The notes under the pieces: model-generated
Databases searched by the model: none
The model's input: only the letters and a program-made list of their open reading frames with translations
Told to the model about the DNA's origin: nothing
Source of the DNA: a virus
DNA length: 33,611 bases
Reading direction: 5' to 3' (one strand)
Virus record (IMG/VR): IMGVR_UViG_3300021964_000261
Coordinates: 1-33,611 of that record
Position numbers and translations under genes: made by a program
In this document: in pieces, positions 5,771-27,086 of the stretch
Numbering within the stretch: position 1 is the stretch's first letter
Layout: each line of letters begins with the position of its first letter

Positions 5771-8010
5771 TTTCGTAGCTCTACTTTAATTGTTTCTATA
5801 TCATTTAACATACGTTGTAACTCTGGAATAACAACATCTGCTTGTCCCTCAAATTGTGATAAGTTTAGTCCTTCTATGATATCGGTTAATTGTACCCTAT
5901 TATCTGTTAATTCTAAATCTATAGCGACGGCAAACTCTGCATCTATATTACCCCAATTATCAATAGCGTTATTGATTTTGGTTTCTAGGTCATTGATTAA
6001 TTTGTATGACTGTTGTGGATCTTTAGAACTTAACAGAGCCTCCATATCATCTCTAGTTACCAACAAATCATTAAAGTTGTACGCCCTTGGTTCTATACCC
6101 ACTCCTGTATAATTAAATACTATTTGCGAACTATAATCCACATTGTTTGCTCTTTGGAAAGCAAGATTCTTTTTGTTTGCTAAGGAATATTGCGTAAATG
6201 CTGGAGTTATCTCACTATCATAAGTCTCTCCTAACACTTCTTCATAAGTATAATAAGGTAACTTCACAATATTAGTTTTCATCCATGAGACAGAATCAAA
6301 AGGTTGATCGTTTTTCCTAGCAATTTTTTGGTCGTTCAAGAACTCTGCCATCATCCTATCCATAGCATTGTGGGTAGACACTAGTCCAGAATCTTCTACC
6401 ATTTTATATATGTCTCTATTTTTAAAATCTGGGACATTGTGATTAGCAATAATAGATTGCATTTCAAAAGGTACATAAGGAAAGATCGTGTCGTAAAAAT
6501 CTGCTTTCTTCTTGTTGATACTACTTAGATTTAACTTCATGATACTGTTTAGTGTTGTGTTGCTAAAGTCAATCATAGCATTTGGCTCAAAAGCCCCCTG
6601 TCTAAATTCTATTCCTGTTTCACGTTGCAGTTTATCTACAGATATAGGCTCACCTGATTTTACCAGCTCATATAATCTTTCTTGAGCCAACTCACTATCA
6701 TCAGCATCGCTCAAGGCTAATTCCATAGTAGATAATAAATTCTTATGACTGTCTATATTCCCACTTATTCTATTGTTTATCTCAAGTTGTGTATCAACTT
6801 TTGTTTCTAAATTAAGAGGAACACCTGCCAAGATTTCATACTGTTCTGCAACTTGCTGATAGCTTTCTATATCATTAGCAAAAATATACTCCAAACCATC
6901 ACTCTCTAACTCTTTTAATTGTAGGTCGAGTTCTTCTTGTTTTAGTTTTTCAATTTTATTCTCTGTGTCATTGTCATAAATAGGTGATAACAACAGTTTG
7001 CTTAGTCTTTCTTTAGAAATAGTAGGGTTATCTCCTAAAGCATCTTCAATGATGTTGTATATCATTTGCCCTCTAGTAGCTAACTTGTTGTTCTTATCCG
7101 CATAAGCGTCATCCCCCTCTGGATTATTCCTTGCGATTATTTTATCAAACAATGGTATAAGGCTATCTAAATCTTCTGACACGATTGCTTTATTAATAGC
7201 CTCTAAGTCATCTGCGACTAAATACTGTTGTATCTCTAGCATTGAATCACGAATACTATTGACAAACTGTTTCTGAGCATTGCCCTTTAGGTTAGTAATA
7301 TCACTTCTCTCTAACTCTAACGGACCAACTTGACTATCTATATTATCAAGAACAGACTGCAAACTTTCCAAAGGGGTGCTAATAGTAAAATCACTTAGTG
7401 GTTTTTCTGGATCTAATTGTAAATATAAATCTGCTTTTTTAATAGTTCTTTGTGTTGTTAGATAATCCTCATTATACTTTGCAAATTTAGACGCTACTGT
7501 CTCGCCAGCCTTTGCATTAAATGATGTGGCAAGCCCTGCATCAAGCTCTAACAGTGAGTCAACAGTCCCATCTTTAATAGCCTTTAGAGACTTATAGAAC
7601 TCTTCAGGTGTTTCTTGGTTCCCCCTAGCGGTGTCGTATGTGTTATTAATTTGAGTATTAAATGAGCTGTTAATGTTGGATAAGATTGTACTCAATCCAA
7701 CTTCTCTTGTTTTTCTAAAATAAGCATTTCCTCTTGGACTACCGATCATTTTGTTTAGTTCGTCGGTTGTCATGCCTTGCAAGGATTCTAAATTTAAATT
7801 AGACACTTCAGGGTCAGTAATCATATTTCTCATTGCCCTGTTCTCTGCCTCAGCAGTTCCAGCTTTAATTGCAAAATCTGTAACAGTATTCAATCTCCTT
7901 TCTAAGTCAGAGAATACACCAGCCTGTGCTTTATATTGAGGAAAATCAACATTAGGTATGCCGACCATTCCTACTCTACCTGATTGATATGCGGTTCTTC
8001 TCGGTGGCAT
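5767..8010 (-). CDS. Internal virion protein (T7 gp15-like by position and size)
   Basis: At 747 residues it is the same length as T7 gp15, and it sits between the gp14-like gene and the gp16-like pair. The N-terminus (MPPRRTAYQSGRVGMVGIP) is basic; the rest is a long, mostly helical, Asn/Asp/Leu-rich chain with no membrane segment that I can see. T7 gp15 is a core protein ejected with the DNA that forms the periplasmic tube, and the same role is inferred here. It starts one base after the upstream gene ends and overlaps the next start by ATGA. I identify it by context rather than by strong sequence memory. Confidence 0.7.
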   Translation of the reverse strand: MPPRRTAYQSGRVGMVGIPNVDFPQYKAQAGVFSDLERRLNTVTDFAIKAGTAEAENRAMRNMITDPEVSNLNLESLQGMTTDELNKMIGSPRGNAYFRKTREVGLSTILSNINSSFNTQINNTYDTARGNQETPEEFYKSLKAIKDGTVDSLLELDAGLATSFNAKAGETVASKFAKYNEDYLTTQRTIKKADLYLQLDPEKPLSDFTISTPLESLQSVLDNIDSQVGPLELERSDITNLKGNAQKQFVNSIRDSMLEIQQYLVADDLEAINKAIVSEDLDSLIPLFDKIIARNNPEGDDAYADKNNKLATRGQMIYNIIEDALGDNPTISKERLSKLLLSPIYDNDTENKIEKLKQEELDLQLKELESDGLEYIFANDIESYQQVAEQYEILAGVPLNLETKVDTQLEINNRISGNIDSHKNLLSTMELALSDADDSELAQERLYELVKSGEPISVDKLQRETGIEFRQGAFEPNAMIDFSNTTLNSIMKLNLSSINKKKADFYDTIFPYVPFEMQSIIANHNVPDFKNRDIYKMVEDSGLVSTHNAMDRMMAEFLNDQKIARKNDQPFDSVSWMKTNIVKLPYYTYEEVLGETYDSEITPAFTQYSLANKKNLAFQRANNVDYSSQIVFNYTGVGIEPRAYNFNDLLVTRDDMEALLSSKDPQQSYKLINDLETKINNAIDNWGNIDAEFAVAIDLELTDNRVQLTDIIEGLNLSQFEGQADVVIPELQRMLNDIETIKVELRK

Positions 8011-8506: not shown

Positions 8507-10467
8507 TATTGACCTACACTCACTTTAAATTCAACTCCAATTAAATTGAAAAACAATGGTTGTGATTGTGAGAATGTCATCTGTCCTTCTCTATCATATC
8601 CCAACATTGGTTTCCTTCTCTTCTTCCCTGTAAAGAAATTTGCCGCAGTAAATGCAAAGTCTTTACCATCTAGGGTAAGATTCTGAGACAAATACAAATT
8701 AGCAGTTGCCTCAACAATTCTTTTCTTCTGTCCTACTATATTACCACTTGGTAATTTTAACTCAACTGGTAATGTTGTTATAGTAGGTGTATAGTTAATA
8801 CCTATCTCAACATACGTTGTCGGTACTGCATCTAATGTTATTGCACCACTTGATACTGTTTTATCTGATTGCATAGCATCATCTACAATAACCTTAACTG
8901 TTTCACCTTCTAAGTGATCCAATCCTGTAACTGATGTCGTACCAGGTAATGTCCCACCTGATAGTAGTATAGCACTATCTGTAGTGTTATCATCATTAAA
9001 TGTTTCTATATAGTATACGTCTGTTGAATCTATTGTTCTCTTAACTACAAAATACATAGTCTCTACATCTACAGCCGCATTAATAAACTCACCATCTGTT
9101 GAGGCTAATGATGGTGCTGTAATGTTTTGAGTCTTGAGAATAGAATAAGTGGCTAATGTGCCATTGCTATTAACTACTAATAATAAATCCCCATCTGTAG
9201 TAGATGTTGCTTTTCTTAGTGCCATATCTACTGGTGATTGTAATAGGTGTGATGATAATAATGATATGTTGTTTGATACATAGTTTAGTTCTACATCACT
9301 AAACAAAAACTCTCTAATAGCTTTACCAGCCGCTTGAATAAATATTGTACCACTCTCAACACCTAGAGGTTTAATACCTTCCTTAGCACCTCTTCTTGTT
9401 GCACCATTGATAACAATGTTACTAGGAGTGATAGGGTCTAGTGATGATTGAGGTACAAAGAACTCACCGCCCTTAGTAAAGATTTGTAAGTCTCTACCAC
9501 TAAACAATCCTATGATTGGGTTGGCTTTACCTGTATCTAATGTTGCTTCTATTGCATCATCATCTAAGGCATTTCCTGGATTGAAGTCAAAAAATCTATT
9601 GACTCGTGAACCAAACAATGTGTTCGGACGTTCCTTAGTACCACCAAAATATAATCTACCTTCGTGGAATGTAACTGTTCTTGGATACCCTCTTGTTGCT
9701 GACCAAGTATCTTCATATCCACTCTCAAGGAACCAATCACCAGCGGCTATAGCGTTTGCATCAAAGAATGGTATCTCTACTACTGCATCTACCTCACTAG
9801 AAGAAACATATTTAATAATCCTTGCTCTACCAATACCATCTGTTGCTTCAATATAATCTCCAACATTAGATGCACTAAAAGAACCACCACTGGTTGAGAA
9901 AGTAACATTACCATCAACCGCAGTCGGTGTGAGGTTATGAGCGCCAGCAGTAGTAGTAATGGTAAAAGCATAGCTAGGCACAAAATCAAAAGAGATAGCT
10001 GAGATAGTCCATGTGCTATGTGATGCACCTCTAACAACTTTGAATGGTGTCATATCTTCATGCACTAATATTAGTGTATCTACAGACTGTGCATAGTCCA
10101 TAGTCGATAATACAGCAGAACCTATTGTTGTTGTAAGATAATCATTACCACTACCATTGATGTTTGTTACCAATGCTTTGTCTTTATAGACATACATTCT
10201 ATTATCAACAAACAATAACATATAGCTTTGTGTAGTAGAAAACTCAAATGCTATAAGGCGTGAACCATTTTGCGGATTAGCGGCACTTGGTATCTCATCT
10301 ATGTATTGTAATCCTGGTCGTCTTTCTAAACCACCTTGAGGCTGGACAAGAACATTCCTTGCTTTATCTAAACCATTATAATACTGGTTAATATCAATCC
10401 TGGATTTCAACAATGGATCAACTTCACCTGTGGTAAAATTAGTTTGGATAGTAACAGCTCTGCTCAT
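8506..10467 (-). CDS. Tail tubular protein B (T7 gp12-like nozzle)
   Basis: A protein of 653 residues. Its N-terminus is characteristic of T7 gp12 family nozzle proteins: VTIQTNFTTGEVDPLL, then QYYNGLDKARNVLVQPQGG and LERRPGLQYIDE within the first ~60 residues. The rest is beta-rich, as expected for the beta-propeller nozzle. It is shorter than T7 gp12 (794). It lies just downstream of tail tube A and upstream of the gp14-like gene, the exact T7 order. Role: distal tail tube and binding site for fibres. Confidence 0.92.
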   Translation of the reverse strand: MSRAVTIQTNFTTGEVDPLLKSRIDINQYYNGLDKARNVLVQPQGGLERRPGLQYIDEIPSAANPQNGSRLIAFEFSTTQSYMLLFVDNRMYVYKDKALVTNINGSGNDYLTTTIGSAVLSTMDYAQSVDTLILVHEDMTPFKVVRGASHSTWTISAISFDFVPSYAFTITTTAGAHNLTPTAVDGNVTFSTSGGSFSASNVGDYIEATDGIGRARIIKYVSSSEVDAVVEIPFFDANAIAAGDWFLESGYEDTWSATRGYPRTVTFHEGRLYFGGTKERPNTLFGSRVNRFFDFNPGNALDDDAIEATLDTGKANPIIGLFSGRDLQIFTKGGEFFVPQSSLDPITPSNIVINGATRRGAKEGIKPLGVESGTIFIQAAGKAIREFLFSDVELNYVSNNISLLSSHLLQSPVDMALRKATSTTDGDLLLVVNSNGTLATYSILKTQNITAPSLASTDGEFINAAVDVETMYFVVKRTIDSTDVYYIETFNDDNTTDSAILLSGGTLPGTTSVTGLDHLEGETVKVIVDDAMQSDKTVSSGAITLDAVPTTYVEIGINYTPTITTLPVELKLPSGNIVGQKKRIVEATANLYLSQNLTLDGKDFAFTAANFFTGKKRRKPMLGYDREGQMTFSQSQPLFFNLIGVEFKVSVGQ

Positions 10468-22131: not shown

Positions 22132-22159
22132 TTGACAATGTTATTTGTTTATATATACT
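22132..22159 (+). promoter_or_regulatory. Rightward early sigma70-type promoter
   Basis: A perfect TTGACA at 22132-22137 and TATACT at 22154-22159 (one mismatch to TATAAT) are separated by 16 bases. Transcription would begin near 22166 and give a leader of about 31 bases before the 32-residue gene at 22197. Strong host-type promoter for the first rightward block. Confidence 0.75.
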
Positions 22160-22196
22160 GAGGATATATTTAATAACTAATAAGGGAATACATACA

Positions 22197-22295
22197 ATGG
22201 AACAAGATAACACATTAGATATAATGCTTAATCTTACATATATAATAGCTGGTATATTTATATTATCACCATTATTACTTTTATTCATTCATTAA
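22197..22295 (+). CDS. Single-TM micro-protein, 32 aa
   Basis: The ATG at 22197 lies behind AAGGGA. I prefer it to the upstream in-frame non-ATG start at 22089, which lies before the promoter. The product is MEQDNTLDIMLNLTYIIAGI plus a hydrophobic run to residue 30, i.e. one membrane helix preceded by an acidic N-terminus. First gene of the rightward early transcript. Tiny early membrane proteins of phages often act on host membrane or channel proteins or exclude rival phages; no specific role can be read here. Confidence 0.6.
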   Translation: MEQDNTLDIMLNLTYIIAGIFILSPLLLLFIH

Positions 22296-23304: not shown

Positions 23305-24040
23305 CCTTGTGAGTGTTCACAAACTTACTCATCAAACCCTCTAGTTCTTTCTTTGGATTGGAGGGTTTTTTGCTGCCCTTAACAAAGACATTCTTAAAAT
23401 AAACAACAGACTTGATGCTGTCCTTGTTGTTCTTCATGCGATATCTAATGGTATCTTCCATCCTCTTCAGTATCTCTTCTTTAGTAAAGTCTTGTAGCCA
23501 CATAGTAACTAGCTCTTCATGTGCTGTGGTGTGTAAGGCTTGATGCCCATAGTATTTGCGAACAATATCTTTGAATAATAATAGTATTGTTCTTGCCTCT
23601 TTGGTTGGTTTAATCTTCTCATACATTCTTGCACCTTGTTCTATCTTTGGTGGTACTACTTCGGCTATCTCTGATACAGTTTCAGATGTCTGCACACTCA
23701 ATGCCTCTTCTTCATCTACCATATCATCAAATACCATATAATATTTGTTACCTTTTAATCCTTTGTGCCTAGTCTTAGCGTGTCTGATGTAATCCCATTC
23801 AATTAACTTCTTAATGTGTTGTGATACAGCACTACGACTGACACCTAAATGCCTTGCAATAGTTTCTTGGTTTGGAAAACAAGTACCTGCTCTGTTCGTA
23901 AACATAGCCAAGCAACAGAACACAAGAAAGGTTGTTGGGTATTTCTTTGACCTCTCATCTACTACCCTCTTACTTGGAATGACACTCCAAATGCTAGGTA
24001 CTTTAGGATTCCCATTTGAATATTTGTTTTTACTGTCCAT
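23294..24040 (-). CDS. Winged-helix replication-organiser-like protein
   Basis: A protein of 248 residues. An N-terminal helix-turn-helix (FPNQETIARHLGVSRSAVSQ at 55-74, HIKKLIEWDYI following) with a basic wing (KTRHKGLKGNKYYMVF) matches the HTH_36-type domains of phage replication initiators. The C-terminal helical region (residues ~145-235, ending SVVYFKNVFVKGSK) resembles the DnaD/replisome-organiser-like half of such proteins. With no phage polymerase or helicase present, it is the best candidate to open the origin and load host replication proteins. A transcription regulator is the alternative. The start overlaps the DUF3310 gene by 11 bases. Confidence 0.65.
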   Translation of the reverse strand: MDSKNKYSNGNPKVPSIWSVIPSKRVVDERSKKYPTTFLVFCCLAMFTNRAGTCFPNQETIARHLGVSRSAVSQHIKKLIEWDYIRHAKTRHKGLKGNKYYMVFDDMVDEEEALSVQTSETVSEIAEVVPPKIEQGARMYEKIKPTKEARTILLLFKDIVRKYYGHQALHTTAHEELVTMWLQDFTKEEILKRMEDTIRYRMKNNKDSIKSVVYFKNVFVKGSKKPSNPKKELEGLMSKFVNTHKVKF

Positions 24041-25290: not shown

Positions 25291-26036
25291 AGAATACTAA
25301 TAAACTATTTGAAGCATTGTCTAAGTTCCAAGAGGACAATGTAACAGCAAAAAAGAATGCTAAAAATCCATTCTTTAAAAGTGACTATGCAAACTTAGAT
25401 GAGGTAATACAAGCAGTCAATCAGGGTGCTAAGTATGGATTATCATTCAGTCAATCGGTGGAGTTTGAAACCCATGTGTTAGCAGATAAAGTAGTAACAA
25501 CACAATTTGTTAGGACAAATGTATACCACAAAGAATCAGATCAATGCTTAACATCTCGTTGTATTATATCTGTTAAAGGTAATAAGTTTGATGATAGTCA
25601 TGCAGTTGGTAGTGCCATTACCTATGCAAAAAGATATAGTCTTTGTGCAATATATGGACTAGCCACTGAAGATGATGATGGTAATAAAGCAACCATGGGT
25701 TCAGATAAGAGTGGCAAAGTTAAAGAGAATAATTCTGCTAGGGGATATACAGATCCTATTACTGGTGAAGCCGCTGATGTTGCTGATGATTACCCTAACA
25801 TATCTAAAGAGGATATTGAGGCTATCAATAAATGGATAGGAAAGTTTGAGGAACTAACCGAGACTAGCACCTACGAAGATATTACTACATTAACTAAAGA
25901 CGAAGAGTTCAAAAGACTGGCTGCTCTCATAAAAGAAACCAAGCAAGAGAATATAGGGCAGTATCAGAAGCTCAAAGATCTTGCTAATTCATGGGGTACA
26001 ATAGCTGGTACTCTTAGAAAGTTTCAGCAGTATTAA
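25284..26036 (+). CDS. erf: ERF-family single-strand annealing recombinase
   Basis: A protein of 250 residues. The N-terminal ~140 residues match the ERF family: LFEALSKFQED, AKKNAKNPFFKSDYANLDEV, a GLSFSQSVEF segment and AVGSAITYAKRYSLCAIYGL, the last being the family's most conserved part. The C-terminal third is a lysine/glutamate-rich helical tail. ERF proteins anneal complementary single strands and help circularise or concatenate phage DNA, which fits a genome with permuted or redundant ends. An SSB-like tail protein and Hjc-like nuclease elsewhere would complete the recombination set. Confidence 0.88.
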   Translation: MVENTNKLFEALSKFQEDNVTAKKNAKNPFFKSDYANLDEVIQAVNQGAKYGLSFSQSVEFETHVLADKVVTTQFVRTNVYHKESDQCLTSRCIISVKGNKFDDSHAVGSAITYAKRYSLCAIYGLATEDDDGNKATMGSDKSGKVKENNSARGYTDPITGEAADVADDYPNISKEDIEAINKWIGKFEELTETSTYEDITTLTKDEEFKRLAALIKETKQENIGQYQKLKDLANSWGTIAGTLRKFQQY

Positions 26037-26734
26037 ACTACCTTACCAATCCAATCCCCCTTGTTGTTCAATACCATGGGCAACAAGCGTGGGATACCAT
26101 CAATAATAATTCCACAACCTAATATAAATCTAGTCGAGAAGTTCTTGGCGTACTCAAATGCTAAGGACTTCTGGTCTATGAGACAACCCACCTGCATACC
26201 AAAAAATAGATTATCACTGTTTGCCCAGTAGGAAATTAGGAACTTCGTATGGTAATGTCCAGATACTGTACTCATTGCTTGTGTCTGACTAACCTTTAAT
26301 ATGTCTGCACCTCTACCATGAGTGAAGAAACATCTTTGTCCATTGCTGAGTGTTAAAGTAAGATCATCTACCCACTTCCACTTCTTTGTTCCCAAGAAAT
26401 CTGCATAAGGTCTTATTAGCTCCTTTGGCATACCATATTTCAAGGCTCTTCTATACACTAATGAGCTATGATTACTATGAACTTCTGTTACTTCTGGGAA
26501 TACAGACTCCAACTCTTTTATGTATTCTCTAGCCATTGTTAATTCATGACCAGCACTTGGTAAGTCAGGACATGAATCATGAAAGGATAACGCATGACTA
26601 TCAATGCTATCGCCTATGTTTACTACATTATCAGGTTTAAATACTTTCTTTACTTCTTTGAGAAAAGCAAAGCTATCTTTATGGTTGTAAGGGATATGTA
26701 AATCACTTATTACTAGTACACATTTATTTTTCAT
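26033..26734 (-). CDS. Calcineurin-like metallophosphoesterase
   Basis: A protein of 233 residues with the metallophosphoesterase motifs in order: DLH (D11, H13), GDSID (G41-D42), SNH in place of the usual GNH (N88, H89), a THGRG (H139) and GHYH (H160, H162). Such phage enzymes may hydrolyse phosphodiesters or nucleotides; the substrate is not evident. Ribosome site AGGAGGATG is strong. The 3' end overlaps the ERF stop on the other strand by 4 bases (TTAA). Its own promoter is likely at 26760-26788. Confidence 0.88.
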   Translation of the reverse strand: MKNKCVLVISDLHIPYNHKDSFAFLKEVKKVFKPDNVVNIGDSIDSHALSFHDSCPDLPSAGHELTMAREYIKELESVFPEVTEVHSNHSSLVYRRALKYGMPKELIRPYADFLGTKKWKWVDDLTLTLSNGQRCFFTHGRGADILKVSQTQAMSTVSGHYHTKFLISYWANSDNLFFGMQVGCLIDQKSLAFEYAKNFSTRFILGCGIIIDGIPRLLPMVLNNKGDWIGKVV

Positions 26735-26759
26735 AACATCCTCCTATGTTATTAACAAT

Positions 26760-26794: not shown

Positions 26795-26824
26795 TTGACA
26801 AGGGGGAATTGTTAGTGGTATAAC
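26795..26824 (+). promoter_or_regulatory. Strong rightward promoter of a candidate small RNA
   Basis: Perfect TTGACA at 26795-26800, an 18-base spacer and TATAAC at 26819-26824, with TGG just before it giving an extended -10. An 11-base palindrome CTTGAGTCAAG at 26824-26834 covers the expected start site near 26831 and might be an operator. Confidence 0.65.
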
Positions 26825-26830
26825 TTGAGT

Positions 26831-26911
26831 CAAGATGTTTTATTAAATTAAAATATTTTTGTATGGTGATGAGAAGAGTCAGGTTATTCCCTTCCTGGCT
26901 CTTTTCTTTTT
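26831..26911 (+). ncRNA. Candidate small RNA of about 80 nt
   Basis: A good sigma70-type promoter ends at 26824 and an intrinsic terminator ends at 26911, with no plausible gene between them. The transcript would be about 80 bases: an AU-rich 5' part, then a 10-base-pair hairpin and U tract. It lies in the only real gap between the end of the leftward late operon (26910) and the metallophosphoesterase gene, antisense to any read-through from that operon. The only frame inside is 16 codons long (26863-26913), lacks a ribosome site and runs through the terminator. Likely a regulatory RNA or decoy; unproven. Confidence 0.5.
26874..26911 (+). terminator. Rho-independent terminator, rightward
   Basis: AAGAGTCAGG (26874-26883) pairs with CCTGGCTCTT (26894-26903) with one G-U pair and a 10-base loop, followed by TTTCTTTTT. 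On the other strand the hairpin is not followed by T residues, so it acts only on rightward transcripts. Confidence 0.8.
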
Positions 26912-27086
26912 AATGCAGTTCGTAACTGATTATCTTCTCATCATTGACCATTTGATCCCAGAGTTCGATAAAAGCAACAGCATCTTCATAGCTTGGGAAT
27001 CCTCGGCATAATATATTGCAGCTAAACGTACCATCTTCTGACTCTAACACAGTAAACATATAGGGAAGTTTGGTTTCATCTCCCAT
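26910..27086 (-). CDS. Hypothetical small protein, 58 aa (last gene of the leftward operon)
   Basis: ATG at 27086, TAA at 26910-26912. The product starts MGDETKLPYMFTVLESEDGT and ends FIELWDQMVNDEKIISYELH. It looks like a compact alpha/beta protein with strand-like FTVLESEDGTFSCNILC and an acidic helix. It follows the membrane protein upstream after four bases. Its stop codon touches the T tract of the opposite-strand terminator. No family recognised. Confidence 0.6.
   Translation of the reverse strand: MGDETKLPYMFTVLESEDGTFSCNILCRGFPSYEDAVAFIELWDQMVNDEKIISYELH

Follow-up and report, generated by a model that had tools for sequence, protein, structure and literature searches.

A conserved promoter-terminator unit of a marine podovirus lineage is a candidate small RNA gene with complementarity to early ribosome-binding sites

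A rightward unit between leftward genes

Why would a phage carry a rightward promoter and an intrinsic terminator, with no evident gene between them, in the gap separating two leftward genes? The unit in question (26795-26911) lies between a metallophosphoesterase gene and a 58-amino-acid gene in an IMG/VR virus record of 33.6 kb and 37% GC, the whole of which was analysed here and is called the window. The window encodes a podovirus-like head-tail connector together with a tail and capsid set. Its capsid protein is 65% identical to that of the OM43 phage MEP301, and its phosphoesterase is up to 78% identical to those of pelagiphages; capsid relatives sought in bacterial genomes as a guide to the host were found in mixed metagenome bins only. 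To our knowledge, little has been described of small RNAs in lytic marine phages, and a literature search turned up no study of them in pelagiphages. The features of the locus are as follows.

26033-26734, minus strand: metallophosphoesterase gene, left flank (phrog_221, E 7e-59)
26795-26824, plus strand: sigma-70-type promoter (TTGACA 26795-26800, 18-bp spacer, extended TG 26816-26817, -10 element TATAAC 26819-26824); hexamers unchanged in L002, L003 and L008-L011
26824-26834, no strand: 11-bp palindrome CTTGAGTCAAG spanning the predicted start site; retained among window-type units
26830-26911, plus strand: predicted small RNA of about 82 nt, fold z about -5; relatives have 0 to 2 changes, all 1-nt indels
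26832-26859, plus strand: AU-rich 5' hairpin, present too in the L091, L144 and L015 RNAs
26860-26870, plus strand: predicted single-stranded linker TGTATGGTGAT
26871-26906, plus strand: terminator hairpin of 13 pairs including G-U; stem replaced in relatives, pairing kept
26884-26893, plus strand: terminator loop TTATTCCCTT (UCCC, anti-Shine-Dalgarno-like), presumed pairing site
26903-26911, plus strand: T tract, sharing bases with the stop codon (26910-26912) of the 58-amino-acid leftward gene
26910-27086, minus strand: 58-amino-acid gene, right flank, leftward

An earlier sequence-only reading had described a promoter and terminator about 80 nt apart, and this layout was confirmed: TTGACA, an 18-bp spacer and TG-n-TATAAC precede a predicted RNA of about 82 nt that ends in a hairpin and a T tract. 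The hairpin and T tract stand as described; the stated stem length of 10 bp does not, 13 pairs being counted when G-U is included. The promoter hexamers carry 11 of 12 consensus bases in addition to the extended TG, and a stock promoter scanner that requires a final T in the -10 element misses TATAAC at 26819. The locus thus has the form of a stand-alone small RNA gene: a short noncoding stretch bounded by a dedicated promoter and intrinsic terminator. This is the only exact-TTGACA promoter-terminator unit in the window (mean of 0.017 in 300 dinucleotide-Markov resamples), and each contig scanned held at most one. The sole other strong intrinsic terminator in the window lies at 23335-23367 on the plus strand, directly 3' of the early rightward gene cluster.

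Two further suggestions of that reading fared less well. Regulation of the RNA through the palindrome at its start site was not supported, as 48 palindromes of the CTTGAGTCAAG kind occur across the window and most related units lack one at this position; the palindrome is weak evidence. The L091 unit has a different 11-bp palindrome, ACAATAATTGT, at the same position over its start site. The proposal that the leftward operon ends at 26910 is probably wrong: in relatives of the L005 type the rightward -35 element lies only about 18 nt away from the phosphoesterase start codon, a gap that leaves no room for a leftward promoter, and the phosphoesterase is therefore probably read from the same leftward transcript. 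The phosphoesterase ribosome-binding site (26735-26752, minus strand) forms the loop of a palindrome, AACAT-AGGAGG-ATGTT, that some 20 contigs keep; in other phosphoesterase lineages the palindrome at this place is a different one.

Conservation of a noncoding RNA

In six close relatives (L002, L003 and L008-L011) the unit is almost unchanged, and the loss of promoter or terminator that would have spoken against a small RNA did not occur. L010 and L011 each show 0 of 117 changes across promoter and RNA, against about 17% in flanking coding DNA (Fisher 2e-9 for L010) and 31% at four-fold sites. The only changes to the RNA body in the other close relatives are single-base deletions in a T run and in the loop. 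A short recombined patch may account for the identity in one relative; several lineages show the same pattern, and the comparison supports purifying selection on the unit.

The sole small open reading frame, 16 codons running from ATG 26863 through the hairpin, raises the question of whether the unit is the mRNA of a very short peptide, and the recurrence of TATG in the linker would fit such a use. Single-base loop deletions in L003 and L008 shift this frame, which argues against a peptide gene. In L138 the frame stops after three codons, and neither a Shine-Dalgarno sequence nor a conserved peptide accompanies it. The peptide reading is already disfavoured and has a negligible probability, and the earlier statement that the gap holds no plausible gene stands.

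Folded alone, the predicted RNA gave z = -4.8 to -5.0, with none of 200 shuffles as stable, and z was below -3 for all unit types except L021. Together, the single-base indels in the only open reading frame and the replacement of stems with pairing kept indicate conservation as RNA rather than as protein.

The unit in distant relatives

Searching IMG/VR with the phosphoesterase leader motif gave 23 contigs; one (L148) is unrelated at the slot, leaving 22, among which L004 is cut off there. Of the 22, 17 have a complete promoter-terminator unit in the same slot. The T tract is interrupted in L015 and absent from L021, L023 and L024, which do have a promoter and hairpin. Overall, the unit occurs in at least 18 related phage contigs besides the window in the same gene neighbourhood. 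In L091 and L102 it sits elsewhere in the operon, after a 47-amino-acid gene, with linker and loop kept. The units fall into types named here for the window, L091, L138, L144, L015, L012 (with L014, L016 and L017), L005 (with L006, L007, L018 and L020) and L021. More distant relatives keep a promoter-terminator unit in the same place with largely new sequence, which supports the small RNA reading.

What varies and what is kept follow a consistent pattern. Terminator stems are swapped wholesale between types, so that MAFFT misaligned them, while pairing is kept and the loop remains rich in C and U and anti-Shine-Dalgarno-like. Between L012 and L014, and between L005 and L007, the RNA body stays the same although the promoter spacer differs. 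A linker motif, UAUGKUGAU, is common to the window, L144 and L015, with variants in L091 and L138. As in small RNAs of the UCCC type, a C-rich motif lies in the unpaired loop: CCC, CTCC or ACCT occurs in six of six distinct loops of units with a T tract and in 1 of 28 other terminators from 1.73 Mb of related DNA (Fisher 5e-6), the motif having been defined after the loops had been seen. The one non-unit hairpin caught by the motif filter, GTGGGGGGCACGAACCCCCC in L203 (plus strand of G010), has a G-rich stem and a ATTATTTT tail. Noncoding indels, the conserved linker and the conserved loop motif support a function at the RNA level.

These observations bear on two readings in which the RNA itself would be incidental. 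The first holds that the DNA element matters, its transcription interfering with the leftward operon or priming replication and the hairpin merely stopping it. A strong promoter opposing the operon with a terminator immediately after it would suit this role, for which the lambda pO promoter offers a precedent; conservation of linker and loop, and not just of promoter and T tract, makes it very unlikely, and no GC-skew turning point lies at the unit, so the idea of a replication origin was set aside. The second reading takes the unit for the left-over promoter and terminator of a rightward accessory gene. L006, L007, L014, L016 and L017 do have a rightward gene with its own promoter inserted beside the phosphoesterase, but in these phages a complete unit with a TTGACA of its own comes after that gene, and one would not expect a remnant to be better conserved than flanking genes. 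This reading, already disfavoured, is more improbable still. The accessory genes themselves encode 62 and 137 amino acids, have no Pfam match and are each preceded by a TTGACA promoter, which in L006 and L007 includes the palindrome-like TATATATCAATATGATATATA.

Scans of the cultured relatives MEP301 and HTVC026P found no unit, and a DNA search of phage records gave no match to it. A pattern search with the AU-rich 5' part and linker returned, besides members already known, nothing but the chance hits L158 and L159. Rfam searches in gathering and E-value modes matched the unit to no family, and no covariance model reached its gathering score. We regard the unit as a putative phage small RNA gene outside any named family.

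Complementarity to early ribosome-binding sites

The AU-rich 5' part had been proposed as the segment with which to search for targets. That search was not productive; the matches came from the terminator loop and linker, and in the window they point to the start of the early region.

22132-22159, plus strand: early rightward promoter, TTGACA-16-TATACT
22182-22198, plus strand: candidate target, AAGGGAATA (9 nt, loop-complementary) then CATACAA (7 nt, linker-complementary), covering the ribosome-binding site and start of the first early open reading frame
22197-22295, plus strand: first early open reading frame, 32 amino acids (MEQDNTLDIML...), candidate repressed gene

The 32-amino-acid open reading frame at 22197 is the first gene after the early promoter (TTGACA at 22132), and its ribosome-binding site is the only one in the window with nine contiguous Watson-Crick matches to the loop. 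Directly after the loop match, CAUACAA can pair with UUGUAUG of the linker in collinear order.

Across the types, Watson-Crick complementarity of loop or linker to early ribosome-binding sites spans 9-13 nt, usually at the first gene after the early promoter. The first early gene of G009 (window type) has AAGGGAATA, a 9-nt match, and G004 (L091 type) has AAGGGAATAA, a 10-nt match. In G001 and G010, of the L005 type with loop UUUAUUACCUUUC, GAAAGGTAA gives 9 nt at the first early gene and GAAAGGTAATAAA gives 13 nt at the second. G007 (L138) and G012 (L144) match over 11 and 10 nt at AACATACGAA(A), paired by the linker. The linker also provides the better match in G002 and G003 (L012 type), 8 nt at GAAAGGTT, the loop match of this type being only general (GGAGGA). 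Matches of 9-10 nt at ribosome-binding sites were found in L002, L008, L009 and G008, which were checked afterwards; no target was found for L021 and L015. The phosphoesterase ribosome-binding site was rejected as a target, the match to it being inconsistent and lacking in the window.

Loop and target differ together between phage types. This observation weighs against the reading that the RNA acts in trans on host mRNAs or the host small RNA network instead of phage early genes. An anti-Shine-Dalgarno-like loop would suit many targets and known phage small RNAs such as PreS act on host genes, but changes in loop or linker go along with changes in the early ribosome-binding sites of the phage itself, and we regard host targets as unlikely.

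The early leaders of two contigs hold a further RNA element. L201 (G007; 8593-8650) and L144 (6394-6451) have type III hammerhead ribozyme cores on the minus strand, immediately upstream of the first early gene's ribosome-binding site; matches to Rfam RF00008 (E 4.5e-6 and 2.2e-5) fall below the gathering score, with the core sequence present. The linker of the L201/L144 RNA is complementary to the hammerhead's last strand and the bases before the Shine-Dalgarno sequence. Upstream of the hammerhead the two leaders have in common a long, structured-looking noncoding stretch (GGCGATGGTTCGACTAG ... TTTTCCATCTAACC; L201 about 8650-8870, L144 about 6450-6680, minus strand) that matched no Rfam family at the thresholds used.

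Strength of the target match

In a focused test, the summed match over five types was 49, and the best of 5000 shuffles reached 39; the test is partly circular because the target genes and the segments to be paired had been picked with the data in view, before it was run. When RNAs were exchanged between types, the true pairing had the top or tied-top sum, with ties only within two pairs of types that share an element. Genome-wide shuffles that allowed any ribosome-binding site gave P values of 0.042 (window), 0.049, 0.015, 0.011 and 0.004, combined 1.2e-5; the window value includes linker matches, and its longest match (10 nt) falls on a gene other than the proposed target. For the window loop alone the genome-wide P was 0.136. 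Matches to the window loop were enriched in its own type (7 of 482) over other types (3 of 969; P 0.019), and the corresponding enrichment for the L005 loop was not significant (P 0.31).

Complementarity of the whole RNA was borderline or null in the window; these scores, which mainly reflected A/T runs and the strand opposite the RNA itself, were dropped in favour of unpaired segments. Nested co-folding, which is unable to represent loop pairing, did not favour the window target. With statistics that are moderate and partly post hoc, the early ribosome-binding site is a good candidate target, not a proven one.

Comparison with known RNAs

Lambda OOP and P22 sar are, like the RNA predicted here, small phage RNAs that have a promoter and terminator to themselves and run out of an intercistronic gap against an operon. 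The target of OOP is the cII message that it overlaps, and an RNA of this cis-antisense kind, complementary to the opposite transcript by position, could pair fully with the leftward transcript between the 58-amino-acid and phosphoesterase genes and cause cleavage or uncoupling, or the late leftward transcript could serve as its sponge. The predicted RNA is perfectly complementary to that intercistronic region, overlaps the stop codon of the 58-amino-acid gene and resembles OOP in size, orientation and layout. It leaves the phosphoesterase ribosome-binding site uncovered, however, and in L091 and L102 the unit lies between other genes with linker and loop motifs kept; antisense action alone would not explain a loop conserved while the stem is replaced. 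Unlike OOP, the unit occupies two genomic locations among relatives, and the parts conserved in it are the linker and a C-rich loop in the terminator, with complementarity to early genes far away. Cis-antisense action is improbable, if somewhat less so than host targets.

The loop recalls a different group of RNAs. Listeria LhrC binds Shine-Dalgarno regions through UCCC loops, and Staphylococcus RNAIII, RsaE and SprD are likewise G-poor RNAs with UCCC in a terminator loop that bind G-rich Shine-Dalgarno sequences (PMC4132741). Those RNAs are chromosomal and belong to Firmicutes, LhrC having three UCCC sites, whereas the present unit is phage-borne, has mostly one loop motif and matches particular early genes over 9-13 nt.

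Anti-Shine-Dalgarno motifs in hairpin loops are also found in the alphaproteobacterial cuckoo/CcsR RNAs, a likeness that we treat as a lead only. Chromosomal copies of these RNAs are co-transcribed with a DUF1127 gene (PMC10253847), and no such gene was found among the window proteins scanned. Phage-encoded trans-acting small RNAs include lambda PreS and vibriophage VP882 VpdS (review PMC12197685), which are Hfq-dependent, come from temperate phages of Gammaproteobacteria and have host targets.

A possible early-gene switch

We favour, with a probability of roughly 55%, the reading that the unit is the gene of a trans-acting small RNA of a marine podovirus lineage that represses translation of phage early genes through its loop and linker. 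Host RNA polymerase is the presumed transcriber because MEP301, the closest cultured relative by capsid, has no RNA polymerase of its own. A sigma-70-type enzyme would make an RNA about 60-95 nt long (some 82 nt in the window), consisting of a 5' hairpin, a single-stranded linker and the terminator hairpin. Assisted in some types by the linker, or giving way to it, the terminator loop, which is poor in G and rich in C and U (UUAUUCCCUU in the window), would pair with ribosome-binding sites at the first early genes; its partner in the window would be AAGGGAAUA-CAUACAA, ahead of the 32-amino-acid open reading frame at 22197. Such pairing would block translation and turn the early genes down as the RNA accumulates. 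The layout of the unit, its conservation and noncoding nature, the loop motif and the complementarity are established from sequence; we infer transcription, pairing in the cell, repression as the direction of the effect and its timing.

A bolder proposal, which we put forward tentatively and hold at somewhat under even odds, is an RNA-only early-gene switch in which loop or linker and the first early ribosome-binding sites co-evolve as lock and key, giving each phage type a private code. The match between loop and target makes a directly testable prediction, for which the natural variants are ready-made exchange pairs. If the reading is true, an RNA that shuts down early translation would be one answer to how the change from early to late expression comes about in such phages.
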